Shown: positions 1,817-32,331 of the stretch, piece after piece
Layout: each line of letters opens with the position of its first letter
Numbering within the stretch: the first letter of the stretch is position 1
IMG/VR virus record: IMGVR_UViG_3300007734_000580
Location: 1-32,331 of that record
From: a virus
Reading direction: 5' to 3' (one strand)
Length of the DNA: 32,331 nt
Position numbers and translations under genes: made by a program
Notes under the pieces: generated by a model
Seen by the model: the letters and a program-made list of their open reading frames with translations, nothing else
What the model was told of the DNA's origin: nothing
Databases searched by the model: none

Positions 1817-1847
1817 CCAATCCTCCAAGGTTGCAAAAAGATCGCCA

Positions 1848-1865
1848 CTCCGCTATCATGCGGAG
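1848..1865 (-). promoter_or_regulatory. Hairpin in primase leader
   Basis: CTCCGC (1848-1853) pairs perfectly with GCGGAG (1860-1865) around a 6-nt loop. It lies about 30 bases before the primase start codon, between the TGCA-loop hairpin and the ribosome binding site. Its role is unknown; it could affect translation or mRNA stability. Confidence 0.5.
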
Positions 1866-1873
1866 CACCGGGT

Positions 1874-3141: not shown

Positions 3142-4409
3142 GGGCGCCGCTGGAGGTGGCGATCACCTTGCCCAAGCTCTACCGCAAGCAAGCGGCGGCG
3201 GTGTGTGACCCCACGCGGATCACTTGCATTGAGAGCACCACCAAGGCTGGCAAGACCATCGGTTGCATTGTGTGGCAGATCGGCCAAGTGATGAGCGGGC
3301 CGCCCGATGCGGAGCATTGGTGGGTTGCCCCGGTCTATGAGCAGGCCATGATGGCCTACCGCTTGGCGTGGTCTCTCTTGCGCCAACAGCAGGGCTTCAA
3401 GCAAGCCCTAGCGGAGAAGGCGATCCTATGCCCGGGCGGGCGGCGGTGGAGCTTCCGATCGGCGGATAAGCCCGACAACCTCTTTGGCTCGGCGGTCACC
3501 AGCGCGGTCTTGGATGAGGCCTCCCGCATGAAAGATGATGCGGTGGATGCCATCTTCTCCACCACCACCCGCACCCGCGGCCCCATGCGCCTCATCGGCA
3601 ATGTGCGAGGGCGGGCAAACCGCCACTACCAATGGAGCCGCAAGGGTGAGGCTGGTGAGGAGGGCTTTGCCTACCATCGGATCACGGCGGATGATGCGGT
3701 GGAGGCGGGGGTCTTTGACCTTGAGGATGTGGAGATGGCCCGCCGCTCCATGCCCGATGCCATCTTCCGTGAGCTCTATTATTGCGAACCGAGCGACGAT
3801 GGGGGCAACCCCTTTGGCATTGAGGCTATCCGGGCTTGTGCGGAGCTCAACGGCGGCAAGGCCACGGGCAAGCCCGTTGCGGTGTGGGGGCTTGATATCG
3901 CCCGCAAGCGGGATTGGGCAGTGCTCATTGGCTTGGATCACTCAAGGCAAGTGGCAGCTTTCCACCGTTGGCACGGCCTCTCCTTTGGCGCGCTTGTGAG
4001 TGAGGTCTCCCGCATAGTGGGCAAGGGCTCCCGGGCTTGCGTGGTCTATGATGCCACGGGCGTGGGAGATGCGGTGGGTGAGCAGCTGGTGGCGGCCCGC
4101 GTATGGGTGGAGCCTTTCATTTTCTCAAGTGCCTCCAAGCAGGGGCTCATGGAAGGCTTGGCTTTGGCCCTCCAGCAGGGCCGCACCTCGGTGGTGGATG
4201 GGGTCCACCGTGCGGAGCTGGAGGCCTTTGAATATGATGTGAAGGCGGGGCGGGTGGTCTATGGTGCCCCCGCTGCCACGCATGATGACACGGTTTGCGC
4301 CCATGCCTTGGCATGGTGGGGCGCCGATCGCTTTGGTGTTACTAACGCGGTGCGCCGCGGCATTATCTCCGCCCCCACGGGGCCAACGGTTAGGGGCTCA
4401 ACATGGTGA
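3138..4409 (+). CDS. Large terminase subunit (TerL), 423 aa
   Basis: This is the ATPase-nuclease of the DNA packaging motor. A Walker A-like segment ESTTKAGKT sits at 32-40 and Walker B SAVLDEA at 122-128, with the catalytic Glu E127. The RNase H-like nuclease half carries acidic residues in WGLDIARKRDW (D253), VVYDATGVGD (D305) and THDDTV (D383/D384). I chose the GTG at 3138 because it overlaps the preceding stop (GTGA). A longer reading to 2976 would overlap terS and the small peptide and has no coding logic. The gene overlaps the portal start by 7 bp. Confidence 0.93.
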   Translation: MRAPLEVAITLPKLYRKQAAAVCDPTRITCIESTTKAGKTIGCIVWQIGQVMSGPPDAEHWWVAPVYEQAMMAYRLAWSLLRQQQGFKQALAEKAILCPGGRRWSFRSADKPDNLFGSAVTSAVLDEASRMKDDAVDAIFSTTTRTRGPMRLIGNVRGRANRHYQWSRKGEAGEEGFAYHRITADDAVEAGVFDLEDVEMARRSMPDAIFRELYYCEPSDDGGNPFGIEAIRACAELNGGKATGKPVAVWGLDIARKRDWAVLIGLDHSRQVAAFHRWHGLSFGALVSEVSRIVGKGSRACVVYDATGVGDAVGEQLVAARVWVEPFIFSSASKQGLMEGLALALQQGRTSVVDGVHRAELEAFEYDVKAGRVVYGAPAATHDDTVCAHALAWWGADRFGVTNAVRRGIISAPTGPTVRGSTW

Positions 4410-8962: not shown

Positions 8963-9018
8963 CCCAACCCCCCACCCCTTCAACCAACGGCCCCTCCACG
9001 GGGCAAGGAGATTAGACC

Positions 9019-9450
9019 ATGGCACTTGGATCACTGACATACAAGACCCCCGTAAAGATCGCCCTCATCGGCTCGGACCTCACCAACAAGGCGGGCTATG
9101 TTGTCTCGCTTGAGAGTGATAGCGGCGTTGCCCTCAACGTTGATCAAGAGGTGCGCCCCTACGGCGTGATCGTGGTGGGATGCGATAGCCTCACCCCGGG
9201 CACCTATCCCTCGCAGATCGCCGCGGGAGCCCTTGAGATCGTGGATGCCTACGGTGCCACGATCGTGGCCATGGCGGGCGGCGCGGGTGTGACCTTTGGA
9301 AGCCCCGTTGCGGTCACCTCCACGGGTGCCCTTGAGGATGCCTCCTTGGTTAAGAATGATTGGATCGTGGGCTATGCCCTCTCCGCCGCCGCCGCTGGTG
9401 AGAGCTTCCTGCTCTCCTTCACGCCCTATCGGCAGCAGGTTGCCCCGTAA
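9019..9450 (+). CDS. Capsid decoration (cement) protein-like, 143 aa
   Basis: A small beta-rich protein with many Gly, Val and Ala residues, sitting directly before the major capsid gene, as head decoration proteins (DUF2190 type) commonly do. There is no signal peptide. AAGGAGATTAG gives a strong ribosome site before the ATG at 9019. Gln is encoded mainly by CAG and most codons are C/G-ending, as in the capsid gene, which fits high expression. The assignment rests on fold character and position more than on a specific motif. Confidence 0.65.
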   Translation: MALGSLTYKTPVKIALIGSDLTNKAGYVVSLESDSGVALNVDQEVRPYGVIVVGCDSLTPGTYPSQIAAGALEIVDAYGATIVAMAGGAGVTFGSPVAVTSTGALEDASLVKNDWIVGYALSAAAAGESFLLSFTPYRQQVAP

Positions 9451-9500: not shown

Positions 9501-10514
9501 ATGACCACGCCCTTCATGCCCCCCGTTGGTATCAATACCGGAGCACTCAAGCCCGGCATCCTCCAGCGCATCTCGCTTTTCCGCGGCGGTGCGCAGGACA
9601 CCAACAGCCTCACCCTTGCGCCGATCGTCAAGGTCGCCACCCGTGCGGGCTTCTACCATTTCTTTGCGGAGAATGACGCACTGCTCACGGGGCAGCCGCA
9701 GAACCCGCTGACCCCCGTTGACTATGACACCCCGGCCAGCCCGGGCGGTATGCGCATCTCGGCGGGCACCTTCAACTCCAATCTCTACCGTTGGGGCTTC
9801 CAAGTGTTCCCCCTCCAGCAGATCGCGGAATTCGCGGCGCGTGGTGAAGATATCACGGCCCGCGCCGCCTTCAAGCTTGGCGGGCAGGCCAAGCAGCACC
9901 ACGCCAAGGTCTTGGGTGCGGTCCTTGACACGGATGGTAACTTCTCCGCCACTCCGGGCTCGGCGGGCGGCGCTGCCACCCCCCTCCAGAATGAGATCAA
10001 CGCCCTCCTCATTGACCTTGCCAAGCAGGGCGTTGACCTCAACGAGGGCCGTTGGGTTGCCACCTGCAACCTCAACACCGCCAATGATATGTTGCAGTTC
10101 AACACCGTTGCGCAGCAGGGCTACGCCCTTGCCTACGCGGGCGGATCGGCCACGGCCCGCACGGGTGCCACGGATATGAGCCAGCTCAAGGCATGGTTTG
10201 CCTCCAAGCTCATCTGCCCGCTTGAGCTGGTGGTGCTCAATCAGTTCCTGCCCACCACGGCGGACACGGTTGGCGCCCCGGTGATCGCCAATGGCCGCGT
10301 GGCCATCTTCAAGGTTGCGGAGAGCTACGGCGATTCTGGTTTCGTGCAGACCATGACCCCCGACCCCAACGCGGCCCTCGGCCAGATCTACACCTATGAT
10401 GTGCGGCAGGGGCTGATCGGCATCGGCCTCCATGTTGAGAGCGACTATGGCATCACGGTCCTTGGTGGCCCGGCCAATAAGTGGGCTGCTTGCCTCACGG
10501 GTGTCTCCCTCTAA
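9501..10514 (+). CDS. Major capsid protein, 337 aa
   Basis: Length, location after protease and decoration genes, and strong codon bias support the coat protein. Around 17 of 18 Gln codons are CAG, whereas other genes use CAA freely. The protein has mixed alpha/beta character without membrane segments or enzymatic motifs. An HK97 fold is expected for this module but cannot be read directly. The ATG at 9501 follows CGGAGATAG. A structured non-coding stretch follows the stop. Confidence 0.82.
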   Translation: MTTPFMPPVGINTGALKPGILQRISLFRGGAQDTNSLTLAPIVKVATRAGFYHFFAENDALLTGQPQNPLTPVDYDTPASPGGMRISAGTFNSNLYRWGFQVFPLQQIAEFAARGEDITARAAFKLGGQAKQHHAKVLGAVLDTDGNFSATPGSAGGAATPLQNEINALLIDLAKQGVDLNEGRWVATCNLNTANDMLQFNTVAQQGYALAYAGGSATARTGATDMSQLKAWFASKLICPLELVVLNQFLPTTADTVGAPVIANGRVAIFKVAESYGDSGFVQTMTPDPNAALGQIYTYDVRQGLIGIGLHVESDYGITVLGGPANKWAACLTGVSL

Positions 10515-26823: not shown

Positions 26824-27206
26824 GGCGCGGCCTCCAGCGCGGCCACCAAGGCCTCCGCCTCGGAGGATTGCCACTTAGTGAGCGGCTTCCAATAGGCCTC
26901 CGGCTCTGCAAAGTGATGGACCACCCATTGCTTGGTCACTGACCCCATGAGGTAGGCAGCAGGGGCATCGTGGGCCTCCCGCACAAGGGCAAGCAAGCAG
27001 CCCAAGGTGGCGGGGTCGGTGAGGTTGGGGAGAGACCGCTCATCAAGCCAAACGCGGTGGCCAGCGGTGTGGGAGTGGCCATAGGGGATGCCTTCCGGGT
27101 CAATGCCCACCAGCCGCTCATGGGCATCAAGAAGCATCCCAGGCATCCACCGCCAACGGGGGCACGCAACGGCGCGGCGGGCAAGGGTCCAATCGGGGGC
27201 GCTCAT
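26820..27206 (-). CDS. Conserved-looking unknown phage protein, 128 aa
   Basis: Contains RRAVACPRWRWMPGMLL and LTDPATLGCLLALVREA, segments that I associate with a widespread phage and prophage protein of unknown role; this is recollection, not a search. There are no TM segments. GGGAGGTG precedes the ATG at 27206, and the gene overlaps its upstream neighbour by 4 bp. Confidence 0.6.
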   Translation of the reverse strand: MSAPDWTLARRAVACPRWRWMPGMLLDAHERLVGIDPEGIPYGHSHTAGHRVWLDERSLPNLTDPATLGCLLALVREAHDAPAAYLMGSVTKQWVVHHFAEPEAYWKPLTKWQSSEAEALVAALEAAP

Positions 27207-27592
27207 TGGGCACCTCCCTTGGGCTCACACCCTGCCACCCGCTTGGCCCGCGGCTTCCGCTTGGCCTCATTGGATTGGAGCCGCTTGAAACTTGGGTAGG
27301 ATAGGCGGCCAGCAAAGACCCGCGGCCATGCGTCAACAGCGGCTTGGAGGGCCACCGCTGCCCGGATGGGGTCAAGGTCTTCCGTGGGGCTCACTCCCGC
27401 GGCAAGGCTGCCCGGGCGAAGGCCTAGCAGCTGCTCCCACCACTCATGGAGATACGGGCTGCCCAAGGTGGATCGGATCCGAACATCAAGGGCTTGGCGG
27501 GAGATGCCAAGGCCACGGGCAAGGTGGACCTTGGTGCCATAGATCGCGGCCACCCGCTCCCCGATGATGGCCGTGGTGTGAGGGTAGATCAT
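27203..27592 (-). CDS. Helix-turn-helix protein, 129 aa
   Basis: Residues 15-38 (VAAIYGTKVHLARGLGISRQALDVR) form a Cro/C1-like helix-turn-helix. The rest is helical with a basic tail. It may be a regulator of the leftward unit or bind the origin repeats, which is inference. ATG 27592 overlaps the recT stop as ATGA; an in-frame GTG at 27598 is the alternative. Confidence 0.65.
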   Translation of the reverse strand: MIYPHTTAIIGERVAAIYGTKVHLARGLGISRQALDVRIRSTLGSPYLHEWWEQLLGLRPGSLAAGVSPTEDLDPIRAAVALQAAVDAWPRVFAGRLSYPSFKRLQSNEAKRKPRAKRVAGCEPKGGAQ

Positions 27593-28449
27593 GCCCACGG
27601 AAACTCTCCCGCGCTCTCATCCTCCAAGGCCTCATCCATGCTTTGCGCGGTGGCATCCACCACGGGCGTGGCCTCATCCTCATTGGGCACCACCGCGGGC
27701 GGCGGCGGGGGCACCATGCGGGCGCCTCCGATGGCCACGGGCACCGCCTCCACCTTGACCCGCTCGGGCTGGTAGAGGGGCGCCTCCGCCTTATCGGCCA
27801 GCTCCAAGGCATCGGCCATGGAGACCGAGCGGGGGAGATACTTGGCAGCGCGGCGGAGCACGGTCTTGCGGGCCATCTCTGCCCAATCGGTGGCCCATGG
27901 GCCGCTCTTGCCCGCCCGTGCCCGGTTGCGGATGGCGTCAACATCCTCCTTGGCCATCCACTCAAAAACATGCTCCCCGCTGGTGAGCACCGCGTGGCAG
28001 TAGACCCCAAGGATAGGATCGGCGCCCTTGCGGCGGAGGTTGGGGTGGTGGCGGAAGGGCGGGGTGCTCTCCAAGGTCACCTCAAAGAGATCCGAATCAT
28101 AGACCACGCGGGCCGAGATGGCGGCAATCTCCCCGGAGCGGCGGATGAGCTGGAGGAGGCCTTGATAGCCCACAATGAGCGTGCATTCGGTGCCATGGGG
28201 CACAAGGTAGCAGCTGCCAAGCACATGGGGCTCAAGGCCGAGTTGGCTTGCCATCATGATGGCGGCCATCACGCTAGGCGGGGAGCACTTGGAGAGGCCG
28301 GGGTTGGTGCGGAAGGCCGTCAAAGCAAGGCGGACCATGCGATCGGGCGTGAGGTGGGCAGGGAGGGCGGCCCTCATCTGCTCCTTGGTGGATGCCGATA
28401 GGAGCCACTCGGCAACGGGGTGGTCTTGGCGGGCTAGTTGGGTGCTCAT
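27589..28449 (-). CDS. recT: RecT-family ssDNA annealing protein, 286 aa
   Basis: The sequence carries RecT family hallmarks: SVMAAIMMASQLGLEP, LVPHGTECTLIVGYQGLLQLIRRSG, an AVLTSGEHVFEWM-type segment and ARKTVLRRAAKYLP. It anneals complementary single strands, working with the YqaJ exonuclease encoded upstream. The C-terminus has a Pro-rich linker (PPPPPAVVP) and an acidic tail ending EFPWA, similar to SSB-type tips. ATG 28449 follows GAGAGGATGAG. The 78-nt gap before it is highly structured. Confidence 0.88.
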   Translation of the reverse strand: MSTQLARQDHPVAEWLLSASTKEQMRAALPAHLTPDRMVRLALTAFRTNPGLSKCSPPSVMAAIMMASQLGLEPHVLGSCYLVPHGTECTLIVGYQGLLQLIRRSGEIAAISARVVYDSDLFEVTLESTPPFRHHPNLRRKGADPILGVYCHAVLTSGEHVFEWMAKEDVDAIRNRARAGKSGPWATDWAEMARKTVLRRAAKYLPRSVSMADALELADKAEAPLYQPERVKVEAVPVAIGGARMVPPPPPAVVPNEDEATPVVDATAQSMDEALEDESAGEFPWA

Positions 28450-28527
28450 CTCATCCTCTCTTGGTGGTGGTGGCCCATTGTGGGCCGTGGAAGGGGGCAA
28501 GGCGGGGATTGCACCCGCCCCTTGGGG
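28450..28527 (-). promoter_or_regulatory. Structured spacer between YqaJ and recT with three possible stems
   Basis: GGCCCA (28472-28477)/TGGGCC (28481-28486) has a 3-nt loop. GGCGGG (28501-28506)/CCCGCC (28514-28519) has a 7-nt loop showing TGCA. GCCCC/GGGGC near 28517-28528 is an alternative. No U-run follows, so translation control, pausing or processing is more likely than termination. Confidence 0.5.
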
Positions 28528-29562
28528 CTACTCCCCTTTGCCCTTGCGCGGTGCGGTCACGCGGCAAGATGGGCTCACGGTGGTGACCTTGCGGAAGGCC
28601 GCCACGATCTCCGGGTGAGCAGCCTCCAGCCCCTTGGCGTCAAGCCCCACCCGCTCCGAGGCGGGGGAGAATGAGCTTTTGACACCCGAGGGCGCGGCCA
28701 GCTTGGCGGCCACCTTGTGCGCCTCAAGGATCACCCGCTTGGCCTCATCTTGCTCCGCCTCCAAGGCCTTGATCTCCGCTCCAAGGGCCACATAGCGGTC
28801 CATGGCATTGGCCACCGCGGGCTCCGCTTCCGCTGGCCCTTCCGCCGCGGGGTGGATGGTGCGGGCAATATCCTCCAGCTCATCCGCATCCGAGGCATCC
28901 GGGAGGCGGCCTTGCGGGTCCACCACCCATGCCATCACGCTCTTGGCCACGGTGGTTACGATCTCCGCCGCGTCGCGGCTTGCTTGGATGGGGATGAGGT
29001 GGAATTGGTAGACCGTCCAGACCGCAAGCCATCCAAGAGAGCACCCGGTCACGGCCAGCTGAGCTTGCACCTGCCACCAATAGGCAAGGCGGAGGTCACC
29101 AGCGGGCACGGCGGAGAAATCCCCATCGGCCACCGCATCCCAATCGGAGCGGGAGCGGTCAAGCTTGGCCTCCACGGTGGCCAGCACGCGGGAGGTCGCC
29201 ACATGGTAGACAAAGCCATCGGGCGTGGCGGAGGCTGCCCCATCGGAGAAGGCCCGCTCATTGCCTCGGAGCTCACACCCGGGGGCAAGGCTAATGTGGC
29301 GGAGGGCGATCTTGAGGATCACCTCCTCCGCATCCCTGCCCGCTGCCATAGCCTCATTGCCCGAGGGCGGGGCCACCAGCGCCAAGAGGTCACGCTTGGA
29401 GAGGATGAGGCCAAGGAGGCCGCCATAGGGAGAGACCCCGATAGCGCGGGCCACCTCGGAGGCGCCAAGGGTGGTGCCACGGGCGCGGTGCCACTCCGGG
29501 CTATCCTTGGGGAAGGCGGGCATGGCCACCGCGGAAACATTGGGGAGGATAAGGTCAAACAT
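28528..29562 (-). CDS. YqaJ-like viral recombinase exonuclease, 344 aa
   Basis: The lambda exonuclease-type core is clear: SPEWHRARGTTLGASEVA at the start, GRDAEE near 75-80, D115 in SATPDGFVY, E131 and K133 in VEAKL, and YWWQVQAQL (161-169) with the conserved Gln. It resects DNA 5' to 3' to give single strands for RecT. A charged coiled coil fills about 245-300. ATG 29562 overlaps the upstream stop by 8 bp; an upstream extension adds residues of no family value. Confidence 0.88.
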   Translation of the reverse strand: MFDLILPNVSAVAMPAFPKDSPEWHRARGTTLGASEVARAIGVSPYGGLLGLILSKRDLLALVAPPSGNEAMAAGRDAEEVILKIALRHISLAPGCELRGNERAFSDGAASATPDGFVYHVATSRVLATVEAKLDRSRSDWDAVADGDFSAVPAGDLRLAYWWQVQAQLAVTGCSLGWLAVWTVYQFHLIPIQASRDAAEIVTTVAKSVMAWVVDPQGRLPDASDADELEDIARTIHPAAEGPAEAEPAVANAMDRYVALGAEIKALEAEQDEAKRVILEAHKVAAKLAAPSGVKSSFSPASERVGLDAKGLEAAHPEIVAAFRKVTTVSPSCRVTAPRKGKGE

Positions 29563-29971
29563 TGATGTAGCCATCGGCAATGCGGGTGAGGTTGGCGGAG
29601 GCCTCTTGGGTGTAGACCATGAGCTTGGGCAACACGGTGGTCAAAGGCTCGGAGGTGGCCAGCGGCTGCCAATCCACCAAGGCGCTGGTGGTCATGGTGC
29701 TCATCACGGGGAGCACGCTGGTGGCGGGCAGCCCTGCCCATCCCTGCTTGGTGGGCTCCACGGCGCGGGAGAGGTGGAGGTGGAGAGCGCCCTTGGTGGT
29801 GGTGCTGTTGCTCACATTGAGGCGGTAGACCACCGAGGCTCCGGGCACCGTAATAGTGGTGCCAAAGGCCGCATCTCCAATGGAGCAGAGCGTGGGAGCC
29901 CAATCGGAATCCGTGGCGGCGAAGGCCTCATGCAAGAGGGGGAGCAAAATGGCGAGGGTAACATGGTCCAT
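29555..29971 (-). CDS. Unknown protein, 138 aa
   Basis: Not recognised. It starts MDHVTLAILLPLLHEAF, weakly hydrophobic, then Thr/Ser/Val-rich strands. AAGGAAG precedes the ATG at 29971. Its leader holds a TGCA-loop hairpin (30004-30019). It is coupled to the YqaJ gene by an 8-bp overlap, suggesting co-expression. Confidence 0.55.
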   Translation of the reverse strand: MDHVTLAILLPLLHEAFAATDSDWAPTLCSIGDAAFGTTITVPGASVVYRLNVSNSTTTKGALHLHLSRAVEPTKQGWAGLPATSVLPVMSTMTTSALVDWQPLATSEPLTTVLPKLMVYTQEASANLTRIADGYINV

Positions 29972-30003: not shown

Positions 30004-30019
30004 GCGGGGTGCATCCCGC
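30004..30019 (-). promoter_or_regulatory. TGCA-loop hairpin H1
   Basis: GCGGG (30004-30008) pairs with CCCGC (30015-30019); the 6-nt loop reads ATGCAC on the minus strand. It lies in the leader of the 138-aa gene. A second TGCA loop on a TTGG/CCAA stem (30037-30051) lies just upstream. Confidence 0.55.
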
Positions 30020-30036
30020 GGGGTGAGTGCTCAAGG

Positions 30037-30051
30037 TTGGCATTGCACCAA
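30037..30051 (-). promoter_or_regulatory. Second TGCA-loop stem in the leader of the 138-aa gene
   Basis: TTGG (30037-30040) pairs with CCAA (30048-30051); the 7-nt loop contains TGCA. The stem is weak and A/T-rich, so it counts only as part of the repeated pattern. Confidence 0.3.
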
Positions 30052-30080
30052 CTAAGGGGCTTGGCCCGTGAGCGGGGAGG

Positions 30081-30476
30081 CTATGCGTAGAGGTGCCAAG
30101 CGGCGGCGGCTGCCTCATAGTTGGCGGTCACCTCGGCAACCCACCGCTCAAGGCTCATTTCATTCCAATAGCAGACAAAGATTGAAGCAACATTGGGGCC
30201 ATCGCAATCAGTGGTAACAATTGAGAGGTAGCCATTGCGCTTGCAAACGGTCACGGGCACCCCCGCCTTGGCAAGGGCACGGTTGACGGTGCGCTCGGTG
30301 GCAACGGGGGCGGGCTTGGCGGCCTTGCGGGCAACCTCAACAGCCACGCGGGCGGCCTCAAGCTCAGCCTCCCGCTTGGCAAGCTCAATGGAGGCCGCGG
30401 TGGCGGCGGCGCGGGCGGCCTCAAGGTTGGCAAGCGCAAGGTCAAGGGCGGCGGAGCGGGCGGGCTTGGTCTTCAT
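30081..30476 (-). CDS. Unknown small protein with coiled-coil N-terminus, 131 aa
   Basis: Residues 8-52 are an Ala/Glu/Arg-rich helix with heptad character. The C-terminal part has RTVNRALAKAGVPVTV, a CKRNGYLSIV strand and an aromatic FVCYWNEMS segment. Function is not known. The ATG at 30476 uses AAGGATGAGACC, the same start region as the 61-aa gene. It is preceded by promoter P2 and hairpin H2. Confidence 0.65.
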   Translation of the reverse strand: MKTKPARSAALDLALANLEAARAAATAASIELAKREAELEAARVAVEVARKAAKPAPVATERTVNRALAKAGVPVTVCKRNGYLSIVTTDCDGPNVASIFVCYWNEMSLERWVAEVTANYEAAAAAWHLYA

Positions 30477-30493
30477 GGTCTCATCCTTGGTGG

Positions 30494-30509
30494 CGGGGGT
30501 GCATCCCCG
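30494..30509 (-). promoter_or_regulatory. TGCA-loop hairpin H2
   Basis: CGGGG (30494-30498) pairs with CCCCG (30505-30509); the loop reads ATGCAC on the minus strand. It starts about 7 nt after the expected transcript start of P2 and ends about 18 nt before the start codon. Confidence 0.6.
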
Positions 30510-30522
30510 TGGTGTGAAAGAG

Positions 30523-30551
30523 CTACTAGGCAAGGGTTGACGGGGTGTCAA
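30523..30551 (-). promoter_or_regulatory. Promoter P2, leftward
   Basis: TTGACA (30551-30546) and TAGTAG (30528-30523) are 17 bp apart. A CAACCCTTG dyad sits in the spacer. The leader is near-identical in layout to P1. Confidence 0.6.
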
Positions 30552-30570
30552 CAACAAAGTGCGCCCCCGT

Positions 30571-30587
30571 AGATCATTTTTTGATCT
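30571..30587. promoter_or_regulatory. AGATCA-TTTTT-TGATCT inverted repeat upstream of P2
   Basis: A perfect 6-bp inverted repeat with 5-nt spacer overlaps the stop of the 59-aa gene, 19 bp upstream of the P2 -35 box. The 13-mer CATTTTTTGATCT recurs in the origin region at 2186-2198. This may be an operator or an AT-rich up-element. Confidence 0.4.
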
Positions 30588-30753
30588 TTCGCATGGCCCA
30601 CGCTGCCAAGGCGCTGGCTTCCGATAGGTTGGCACCCGCGCCACGGGCCGCATCATAGGAGGCGGAATAGGAGCGAAGATCGCTGCCCGTCCGATCGTGG
30701 GTCACTTGCGCCGCCGTGATGGCCCGAGCCGCTGCCAAGCTGGTGGTGGCCAT
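30574..30753 (-). CDS. Small unknown protein, 59 aa
   Basis: Too short for many gene finders but supported by GGGAGG before the ATG at 30753, by position 3 bases after the preceding stop, and by good codon use. The product is Ala/Ser-rich and ends in basic residues (MRKIKK). Function is unknown. Confidence 0.6.
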   Translation of the reverse strand: MATTSLAAARAITAAQVTHDRTGSDLRSYSASYDAARGAGANLSEASALAAWAMRKIKK

Positions 30754-30756
30754 GAG

Positions 30757-30951
30757 CTAGCCCTCCCAAGAGGTGGTGCGATTCATGCGGAGGCAATCCC
30801 GCACTTTCTCGGAGATGGCCAGCGCCTCGGCCTCATCCCACAAGGCCCGGTTGCGGAGGGAGAAGGTGGCATGGTCCACGCGGTTGGCATAGTAGGCGGC
30901 CACATTGGCCATGATCTCGGCCACAAGGTGGGGGGCGGTCTTGGTGCTCAT
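30757..30951 (-). CDS. Small unknown protein, 64 aa
   Basis: Helical protein (EIMANVAAYYANRVD, LWDEAEALAISEKVRD) with a C-terminal WEG. CGGAGCC precedes the ATG at 30951. It belongs to the run of small leftward genes before the recombination genes. Function is unknown. Confidence 0.6.
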   Translation of the reverse strand: MSTKTAPHLVAEIMANVAAYYANRVDHATFSLRNRALWDEAEALAISEKVRDCLRMNRTTSWEG

Positions 30952-30981
30952 TGGGGGCTCCGATGGGTGGGGGCGGGTGGG

Positions 30982-31167
30982 TTAGAGGGTGTCACAAAGG
31001 GCAACGAAGGCGGCTTCGGGGAGGCGGCGCTCCAGCTCCTCAAGGCAAGCCGAAAAGGCCGCATCCGCGCCCTCATCAAATCGGGCGGCAAGGCCTCGGG
31101 TGACCTCCACAAGTTGCGAGGTGGCAAGAGCGGCAATCTTGGTGGCAAGGGCGGCGGGGGTCTTCAT
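30982..31167 (-). CDS. Small unknown protein, 61 aa
   Basis: Starts MKTPAALATKIAALATSQLVE and continues in amphipathic helices. The ATG lies after GAGGATGAGACC. It is the first gene under promoter P1, behind hairpin H3. The promoter and leader resemble those of the 131-aa gene closely. Function is unknown. Confidence 0.6.
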   Translation of the reverse strand: MKTPAALATKIAALATSQLVEVTRGLAARFDEGADAAFSACLEELERRLPEAAFVALCDTL

Positions 31168-31185
31168 GGTCTCATCCTCGGTTGC

Positions 31186-31201
31186 GGGCGGTGCAACGCC
31201 C
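31186..31201 (-). promoter_or_regulatory. TGCA-loop hairpin H3
   Basis: GGGCG (31186-31190) pairs with CGCCC (31197-31201); the loop reads TTGCAC on the minus strand. Compared with H2, three of five stem pairs differ and pairing is kept. It starts about 8 nt after the expected P1 transcript start. Confidence 0.6.
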
Positions 31202-31215
31202 TCGGTGTGAAGATG

Positions 31216-31245
31216 CTTCTAGCGTAACGGTTGCGCCCGTGTCAA
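31216..31245 (-). promoter_or_regulatory. Promoter P1, leftward
   Basis: TTGACA (31245-31240) and TAGAAG (31221-31216) are 18 bp apart; CTAGAA at 17 bp is an alternative -10. It begins directly after the primase stop (31252-31254). The spacer contains a CAACCGTTA dyad like that of P2. Confidence 0.6.
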
Positions 31246-31251
31246 CAGATA

Positions 31252-32331
31252 CTAGGGCACCTCATCATCATTTGATCCGCCGCCACGATCGTGCTCTTCC
31301 CCGCATAATTCCGATAGATGGCGGCTCAAGCGGTAGCACCACGGGCTCCCGCCCCCAAGATAGATCTTGTGGGTCGATCTTCCCTCGCCCTTCACCAGCT
31401 CACTCCGATCCAAGAAGGTGGCCACCGTGGCCTTCACATTGAGCCCCCGCCCCTTGAGGTAGTCGTGGAGAGCATCGGGCACGAGGTAGACCGCTCGCTC
31501 CCCCTTCTCCTCCCGCATCCTGCCAATGATGGGCATGGAGTTCTCCGGGGCGTTGGCGTGCCATTGCATCCGCGCCTTATTGGAGGCCACCCAAGCCACC
31601 ACGCCCTCAATGGCATGGGCAGCCTTGTCGGCCTCCGCTCCCTTGGCCAAGATCGCCTCCAGCTCACTCTTGGAGAAGAGATCGGATAGGTCACTTTGCG
31701 CCTTCCACTCAAGCCCAACAGCCTTGCGGAAGAGCCACCAGCCCACCTCCATTTCCGCGAGGTAGAGGGCTATGCGTTGGATCGCCTCGGTGCCACTCAT
31801 GGCGGGAGGCCGCGCCAAGGCATAGGCCGCCGCCTTCCGCTCTACCATGGCCCGGAGCTCCGCCCGCTCTTCCGCGCTGGTGGCCATCACATGGTCCACA
31901 AAGGCCGCGCCCGCCGCACCGTGGTGGACCTCCACGCCCTTGGCAGCTGCTTGGAGCATCTTCTTGGTAGTGGGGCTATCTCCGCCAAAGATCGGCCCCC
32001 ATATGGTCACGCATCGGGCCACCAGCCCGCCCGCCTCCCGCATCCCTGCCAAGGGGGTCTCACCCGTGGAGATGAGCACCGATTCATAGGTTGCGCTCTT
32101 TTGGGTGCCCGTGATGGTGCCCCGCGCCTTGCCCCGCCCTTGGGTGATCTCATAGACCCAATTGCCCGCAGCCGTGAGATCGTCCGCTAGTTGGCTCTCA
32201 TCCCGGAAGATGGGCAGACCTCGCATGGCACCCGCGATCCTCTCCGAGGCCGTGTTGGTATCCTTCCAATTGCCCACGATCCTGCCCGTGCCCCAAATGG
32301 AGGCGGCCAGCTTCAAGGCCGTGGTCTTGCC
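31252..32331 (-). CDS. TOPRIM/DUF927 primase-helicase, C-terminal part (continues from 1-1816)
   Basis: The C-terminal 359 residues; the last 127 bases repeat window positions 1-127. Positions are counted in the joined protein. After Walker A (559-567) come the Walker B-like LPIFRDESQ (D607/E608), a NWKDTNTASER segment and an arginine-rich WGPIFGGDSPTTKK sensor region. The C-terminal 150 residues are helical and end with acidic DRGGGSNDDEVP. It is the ATPase half of the replicative primase-helicase. The stop at 31252 is next to promoter P1. Confidence 0.9.
   Translation of the reverse strand, partial: GKTTALKLAASIWGTGRIVGNWKDTNTASERIAGAMRGLPIFRDESQLADDLTAAGNWVYEITQGRGKARGTITGTQKSATYESVLISTGETPLAGMREAGGLVARCVTIWGPIFGGDSPTTKKMLQAAAKGVEVHHGAAGAAFVDHVMATSAEERAELRAMVERKAAAYALARPPAMSGTEAIQRIALYLAEMEVGWWLFRKAVGLEWKAQSDLSDLFSKSELEAILAKGAEADKAAHAIEGVVAWVASNKARMQWHANAPENSMPIIGRMREEKGERAVYLVPDALHDYLKGRGLNVKATVATFLDRSELVKGEGRSTHKIYLGGGSPWCYRLSRHLSELCGEEHDRGGGSNDDEVP
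32205..32331. repeat. Right copy of the 127-bp terminal direct repeat
   Basis: Identical to bases 1-127. See the left copy. Confidence 0.95.

Follow-up and report, generated by a model that had tools for sequence, protein, structure and literature searches.

The early region of this viral genome appears to carry two different RNA elements. In the reading we favour, although with rather less than even confidence, small leader hairpins (class I) are recognised through their loops, most likely for antitermination, and a three-way junction (class II) punctuates the early message.

The window, that is, the whole stretch of DNA that was analysed, comprises the 32,331 bases of the IMG/VR virus record IMGVR_UViG_3300007734_000580. 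Its ends are identical over 127 bp (positions 1–127 and 32205–32331), and because of this repeat the genome is probably circular and complete. The early genes lie on the minus strand and comprise primase, a DUF927 helicase, small genes, a 138-aa gene (29555–29971; without a match in Pfam or PHROG), a YqaJ-like recombinase/exonuclease (28531–29562; PF09588) and RecT (27589–28449; PF03837). A TerL search gave 34 relative loci at 67–97% identity, and a YqaJ search recovered the same group. Based on leader and protein similarity we use the working labels A to G for clades: clade A comprises the window, L041–L043 and probably L011; clade B, L012, L017, L022, L025, L026 and L054; clade D, L014, L020 and L021; clade E, L029–L031, L037 and L055; clade F, L032, L034 and L068; and clade G, L039. 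A host search through TerL found no relative in 84,980 bacterial and archaeal species genomes, the leader region had no near DNA match among annotated phages, and a pattern search of IMG/VR with the promoter and leader returned three close relatives only. Directly 3′ of RecT the window encodes a small helix-turn-helix-like protein (27203–27598) whose C-terminal tail is basic, a candidate early regulator with look-alikes in clades B and D and without a Pfam or PHROG match. It was also considered as a loop-binding factor and rejected, being present on by-eye reading in clades A, B and D and unseen at that place in clade E.

Class I hairpins in the early and primase leaders

An earlier note on this DNA had pointed to three hairpins, H1 (30004–30019; GCGGG-AUGCAC-CCCGC), H2 (30494–30509; CGGGG-AUGCAC-CCCCG) and H3 (31186–31201; GGGCG-UUGCAC-CGCCC), and their positions, 5-bp stems and 6-nt loops proved exact, all on the minus strand. 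Pairs 1, 2 and 4 of the five stem pairs differ among them with pairing kept, as had been claimed. Among the 81 TGCA sites of the window these are the only 6-nt TGCA loops on a stem of at least 5 bp, compared with a chance expectation of ∼0.1 (Poisson P ∼1.6e-4), a count in which H2 and H3 are not independent because they belong to a duplicated promoter–leader cassette (78% identity over 95 nt), the first genes of both beginning MKT. Each cassette runs in the order TTGACA-17/18-TAGNAG, TCACACC, hairpin, ribosome-binding site and ATG. The primase leader carries a further class I hairpin on the same strand (1874–1898; GGCCGC-AA-G-AUUGCAC-C-AA-GCGGCC), in which a G-C pair closes the loop AUUGCAC above a tandem A.A internal loop; it is identical in L041–L043, and L011 has a GA/AA internal loop.

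The orthologues change with pairing kept, which agrees with the earlier proposal of a selected RNA structure. H3 reads GGGCA-AUUGCAC-UGCCC, GGGCG-AAUGCAC-CGCCC or GGGCG-AUUGCAC-CGCCC in relatives, the G-C pair being replaced by A-U in L041; H1 gains or loses one whole base pair (GCGGGG-AUGCAC-CCCCGC in relatives); and the loop of H2 is AUUGCAC in L043, so that the clade A loop is A(U)UGCAC, of 6 or 7 nt. The sole exception to kept pairing among orthologues is the outermost H2 pair, which is C-G in the window and C.A in relatives. Loop sharing within the window alone is at chance level (one observed case of a loop of at least 6 nt on differing stems, against 1.15 under the null), and the strong evidence for it comes from the relatives.

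Behind the DUF927 helicase gene, all clades have a promoter-like sequence with a short leader. In clades A, B, D, E and G this early leader has a hairpin of at least 5 bp close to where transcription is predicted to begin, clade F having a 4-bp stem only, and a primase-leader hairpin is also present in clades A, B and E. A stem of at least 5 bp starts no more than 10 nt from the predicted start in 14 of 17 leaders against a background of 0.11–0.15, which corresponds to P ∼5e-6 if the count is taken as 8/10 roughly independent leaders. The distance is 0–3 nt in clades B, E and G and in the primase leaders, and 5–6 nt in clades A and D; all class I copies have one orientation relative to transcription. 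What the early and primase leaders of one genome have in common is the loop, on differing stems: A(U)UGCAC in clade A, CGACAA in clade B (GGCAG-CGACAA-CUGCC in the early leader and GAGCCG-CGACAA-CGGCUC in the primase leader of L022, L025 and L026) and GAGUGAG or GAGCAAG in clade E (GUCGGU-GAGUGAG-ACCGAC and CGCGGU-GAGUGAG-ACCGCG in L029; GUCGGU-GAGCAAG-ACCGAC and GCGGC-GAGCAAG-GCCGC in L031/L037). The stems of both leaders are identical in L012 and L017. Enumeration of all hairpins, with nested forms counted once, recovered these leader pairs without prior positions; the leader loop was the sole recurring loop of at least 6 nt in L012, L017, L022, L026, L029 and L037; in L025 and L031 one other distinct loop recurred beside it. 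Shuffles of L012, L022, L029 and L031 gave 0.05–0.40 shared loops on different stems. A second leader with the same loop was not found in clades D, F and G, and the two leaders of L039 have no common loop.

A lack of covariation in relatives, which the earlier note had named as evidence against its own proposal, is not what we observed. Two-sided stem changes occur at 3/6 pairs in clade B, 3/6 in clade E and 2/5 in clade A, with 4 to 8 distinct sequences per clade, and in clades B and E none remained once the partners were slid. By these sequence comparisons the RNA structure of the class I hairpins is well supported. Between L029 and L031 of clade E, moreover, GAGUGAG is replaced by GAGCAAG in both leaders, where flanks, promoters and closing pairs differ, and no other observation points as strongly as this concerted change to a loop-specific factor that acts in trans. 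The TGCA motif itself, which had been taken for a conserved family feature, is limited to the window's own clade, the leaders of other clades carrying CGACAA or GAGYRAG, and the covariance model search proposed as a check gave nothing clear outside clade A: beyond it, a model of the clade A hairpin (R1) had only matches at E 0.38 or worse.

H1 lies 3′ of copy 1 of the three-way junction and 5′ of the ribosome-binding site of the 138-aa gene upstream of YqaJ, and no promoter was found for it. In clade A it has its loop and an upstream TCAC-C string in common with H2, and its place is taken by other hairpins elsewhere: clades D and E have one there, 3′ of the junction, and clade B has one in front of the same gene. 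H1 probably belongs to class I, and it may be a class I hairpin that was relocated to the post-junction site. At H1's place, before the ribosome-binding site, the early leaders of clade B (L012, L017, L022 and L025) have a second hairpin with the loop GCUU(G)A and compensatory stems (GCCUC/GAGGC, GCUCC/GGAGC and GCCCC/GGGGC).

Transcript starts were predicted from consensus promoters with weak −10 hexamers. The predicted promoters, all on the minus strand, are at 31216–31245 for the H3 leader (TTGACA 31240–31245, 18 nt, TAGAAG 31216–31221; kept in L041–L043), 30523–30551 for the H2 leader (TTGACA 30546–30551, 17 nt, TAGTAG 30523–30528) and 1905–1933 for primase (TTGACG 1928–1933, 17 nt, CATCAT 1905–1910). 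They place H2, H3 and the primase hairpin 0–6 nt from the predicted starts, in agreement with the closeness to transcript starts suggested earlier. The first gene after H3 (30982–31167, minus strand; 61 aa) has no Pfam or PHROG match, and that after H2 (30081–30476, minus strand; 131 aa) has a weak match to PHROG 9154, of unknown function. In L041–L043 the promoter and hairpin of H2 and H3 are kept and the genes behind both leaders are completely different; flanking genes are ∼90% identical to those of the window despite the swapped small genes, and the positions behind these leaders may be sites at which accessory genes, perhaps for anti-defence, are exchanged. In the primase leader a terminator-like hairpin with a U-rich tail (1838–1867, minus strand) lies 3′ of the class I hairpin and 5′ of the ATG (1816), a position kept in clades A and B; the evidence for a terminator is weak because a scan of the window found two against 1.4 expected, which is chance level. 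In the early leaders, no terminator separates the hairpin from the gene.

Several dyads lie at or near these promoters. TTGAC-ACCCC-GTCAA (30546–30551 with 30537–30541) overlaps the −35 of the H2 promoter, and a TTGAC-N5-GTCAA dyad overlaps the −35 of early promoters of clades A and E (L029 and L031 in the latter), although not in every copy; in L031 both halves are changed (TTTAC-N5-GTAAA). This dyad resembles a DNA operator to which an early repressor would bind. On the 5′ side of the primase promoter, the window has a large dyad at ∼1955–1990 (CCCCCACGGTGG...CCACCGTGGGGG), whose counterpart in L041–L043 is a different long dyad (CACCTTGAGCGCC...GGCGCTCAAGGTGG). TTGCACC was considered as a DNA operator and rejected; two copies are present in the rightward promoter and are lost in L011.

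Readings of class I function

We propose that each phage lineage would have its own loop, repeated in its leaders on stems that are free to vary as long as they remain paired. A phage-encoded factor would recognise the loop in the nascent leftward early RNA, and the bound factor would mark the transcribing polymerase or the message. The most likely result would be passage through terminators, for example the weak one before primase, in the way that lambda N acts from boxB. The common denominator of the class I copies is a nascent leftward early transcript with a lineage-specific loop, and the primase hairpin, which is too far from the start codon to block ribosomes directly and in clades A and B has the terminator-like hairpin behind it, fits antitermination by an N-like factor. 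The earlier note had offered binding by a phage protein and loop–loop pairing as options, and of these the protein seems the likelier.

The lambdoid boxB/N systems (lambda, P22 and phi21) resemble class I in their small hairpin of 5–6 bp, in a lineage-specific loop that recurs in early transcripts of more than one operon, and in that the loop is kept and the stem varies with pairing. As at a nut site, class I places a lineage-specific loop with kept pairing on more than one early transcript. The GACAA of clade B is identical to the P22 boxB pentaloop, and the GA-GNRA-G of clade E contains a GNRA tetraloop, which is kept in the change of GUGA to GCAA; a GNRA-like loop fits clade B GACAA and clade E GUGA/GCAA, but not clade A AUUGCAC. 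Unlike in the lambdoid nut sites, the hairpin here stands at the predicted transcript 5′ end, with loops of 6–7 nt, and neither a boxA nor an N-like protein was found. Leaders read by eye showed no common boxA-like string 3′ of the hairpins, and no boxA (GCTCTTTAA-like) accompanies the hairpin in the transcript; most of the boxA-like GCTCTTTCACACC before H2 lies 5′ of the predicted start, and neither clade E nor the primase leaders have an equivalent. Pfam/PHROG-type searches and by-eye reading of the small early genes gave no match to an N-like family, and no loop-binding protein was identified among the candidates considered. Because neither boxA nor an N-like protein turned up in these readings and searches, class I is not classed as a nut site. 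HK022 put is one conserved two-hairpin structure that acts on RNA polymerase without a phage factor; it likewise consists of early-transcript hairpins near the promoter, and clade B has two in tandem, but the class I loop is lineage-specific and the hairpin is often alone. If class I is a loop-recognition code, it would be a second, independently varied example of the boxB/N role, in phages of uncultured hosts, and the concerted change in clade E pinpoints the exact bases to test.

The main rival is that the hairpins are passive 5′-terminal stem-loops which shield early mRNAs from 5′-end-dependent decay with no loop-binding factor, a reading that we consider unlikely but worth taking seriously. 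Such stem-loops are known stabilisers of mRNA, as in ompA and papA (references in PMC3997798), and B. subtilis RppH needs unpaired 5′ nucleotides (PMC3997798). Class I has the same GC-rich stem near the 5′ end, and in most clades hairpins of unrelated sequence lie 0–6 nt from the predicted starts. Passive stabilisation thereby explains the position, but not the conservation of a loop within a genome, which is not expected of stabilisers; a kept loop on a changing stem and the concerted change in both clade E leaders are left unexplained, 5–6 nt would stay unpaired in clades A and D, and H1 is internal. A loop-specific protein would account for loop sharing also if it were a phage translational regulator that blocks or aids ribosome loading on the first gene, and ∼18–25 nt separate the ends of H2, H3 and the early hairpins of clades D and E from the start codon, a distance that an initiating ribosome can span. 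This is nevertheless rather unlikely, given that the primase hairpins, which have the same loop, end ∼55–70 nt from their start codon and a further hairpin intervenes, and that the first genes behind H2 and H3 differ completely among close relatives.

Loop identity might instead be a functionless by-product of leader cassettes that were duplicated or gene-converted and whose GC-rich stems drift. H2 and H3 are indeed duplicated cassettes and the window by itself shows no more loop sharing than chance would give, but in clades B and E the early and primase leaders have only the hairpin in common, the closing pairs of L031 differ, and stems change only with pairing kept, so that we regard this as improbable. 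Near-perfect dyads beside promoters, with clade-specific sequences that would suit immunity types, could be palindromic DNA operators near +10 bound by a repressor or activator. It is the centre that is kept, however, and the half-sites that change with pairing, which makes an operator quite improbable for class I; the centres of clades B and E are asymmetric, loop length varies by 1 nt among clade A copies, and the TTGAC-N5-GTCAA over the −35 is a better operator candidate. Highly improbable, finally, is loop–loop kissing between transcripts, which the earlier note had derived from the self-complementary UGCA that is kept in H1–H3 and in the primase leader of clade A. The counterpart loops CGACAA and GAGYRAG are not self-complementary, so kissing cannot be general; in the DNA examined, no complementary site co-varies with the clade E loop and no trans-RNA partner complementary to it changes together with it; and the GGUGCA of junction arm P3 is not kept in L041.

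The class II junction at early gene boundaries

The earlier note had grouped further TGCA-loop stems with H1–H3 in one family. These stems exist, and that at 1874–1898 does group with H2 and H3, but those at 30037–30051 and 28501–28519 are the T-arms of three-way junctions, and look-alike TGCA loops in one window can come from two unrelated RNAs. Both junction copies are on the minus strand. Copy 1 (30029–30073; 45 nt) precedes H1 and the 138-aa gene and has the 30037–30051 stem as its arm P3, with the loop UGCAAUG; copy 2 (28495–28543) precedes RecT and has the 28501–28519 stem as P3, with the loop UGCAAUC. Copy 2 spans the YqaJ stop codon (28528–28530), which is placed in the P2 loop, and in most YqaJ–RecT copies the upstream stop codon is likewise inside the P2 loop. 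It is followed by a hairpin, GGCCCA-CAA-UGGGCC (28472–28486, minus strand), at the place that matches H1 after copy 1, and the order 3′ of the junction is a pyrimidine-rich linker, the hairpin (H1 or 28472–28486), a ribosome-binding site and ATG.

In clades D and E, the gene boundary that holds copy 1 has a counterpart junction of almost wholly different sequence. Paired cells in the alignment number 148/160, compared with 36–50% when the partners are slid, and P1 shows three to four pair types at every position. A model of copy 1 from clades D and E retrieves copy 2 of clades E and F at E 0.001–0.12 and that of clade B more weakly, and copy 2 of the window was found by reading the YqaJ–RecT boundary after hits there in relatives. 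A descriptor with P1 of at least 5 bp, P2 of 4 bp and P3 of at least 5 bp with a 7-nt TKCR-type loop gave 23 hits in 398 kb compared with 3 in one single shuffle; the count of known copies is not independent because the descriptor was written after examples had been seen, but the absence of hits elsewhere is. All 23 hits are at early boundaries, namely before the 138-aa gene or its counterpart, between YqaJ and RecT, or beside RecT, and class II recurs at early gene boundaries in five of the six clades. The three-way junction structure of class II is well supported.

In tRNA, a G53-C61 pair closes the TΨCRA loop, and tRNAs punctuate organelle mRNAs. Class II has the same T-arm signature, a G-C closing pair (17/17) under a 7-nt loop U-K-C-R-A-N-N of the UUCRA type (U in 16/17, K, C and R each in 17/17 and A in 13/17), and, as in tRNA, P1 and P3 meet, with 0–3 nt between their 3′ strands, and the placement is intergenic. 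It differs from tRNA in that a single 4-bp arm takes the place of the D and anticodon arms, P1 is of 5–6 bp rather than a 7-bp acceptor, and there is no CCA end. ARAGORN called no tRNA for class II, Rfam 15 at gathering score had no match in the window, and at a lax E-value, in part of the window and four relatives, Rfam gave chance-level matches elsewhere only. We suggest that the junction would mimic the acceptor and T arms of tRNA and would punctuate the early message, either as a processing site or through a coupling to translation. If the RNA were cut 5′ of P1, the upstream gene would in many cases be trimmed ahead of its stop codon, and this speaks against a simple RNase P site. If the suggestion is true, class II would be a new RNA between cistrons, a tRNA mimic without a D arm that sits at early gene boundaries and is placed alike in unrelated phages, and it raises the question of whether phage messages are targets of tRNA enzymes or ribosomes at these junctions.

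A pattern search of IMG/VR for the P2–P3 part returned 27 stretches, and most with a full junction are from the same phages. Full junctions are also found in unrelated phage contigs (L093 and L081/L095), so that the mimic may be widespread. L093 has two tRNA-like junctions ∼900 nt apart (9925–9969 and ∼9010–9055) with the loop TTCGATT, and L081 (2565–2609) and L095 (∼648–692) have an intergenic junction with the T-loop TTCAACT and a TAG stop in the P2 loop. In L095 this TAG ends the upstream frame, a placement that is partly by design because the search pattern demanded TAR there. The terminase of L081/L095 resembles that of cyanopodoviruses (∼72% DNA identity); blastn of the L095 class II region against annotated phages matched nothing, and the descriptor had no hit in P-SCSP1k, an annotated relative. 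It is a possible but doubtful conclusion that this one early region combines two undescribed RNAs, a boxB-like loop code that lacks boxA and, between cistrons, tRNA mimics which enclose the upstream stop codon, as a form of 'tRNA punctuation'.

Further copies were seen at other places. L042 has at 3557–3599 an incomplete copy of the clade D/E junction after an imported small gene ending ...RRRAAY, as if the small gene and the junction copy had moved together. In clade B, a further junction with a TAA stop in P2 follows ∼350 nt after the YqaJ–RecT copy (L054 2564, L090 ∼310–357 and L091 ∼786).
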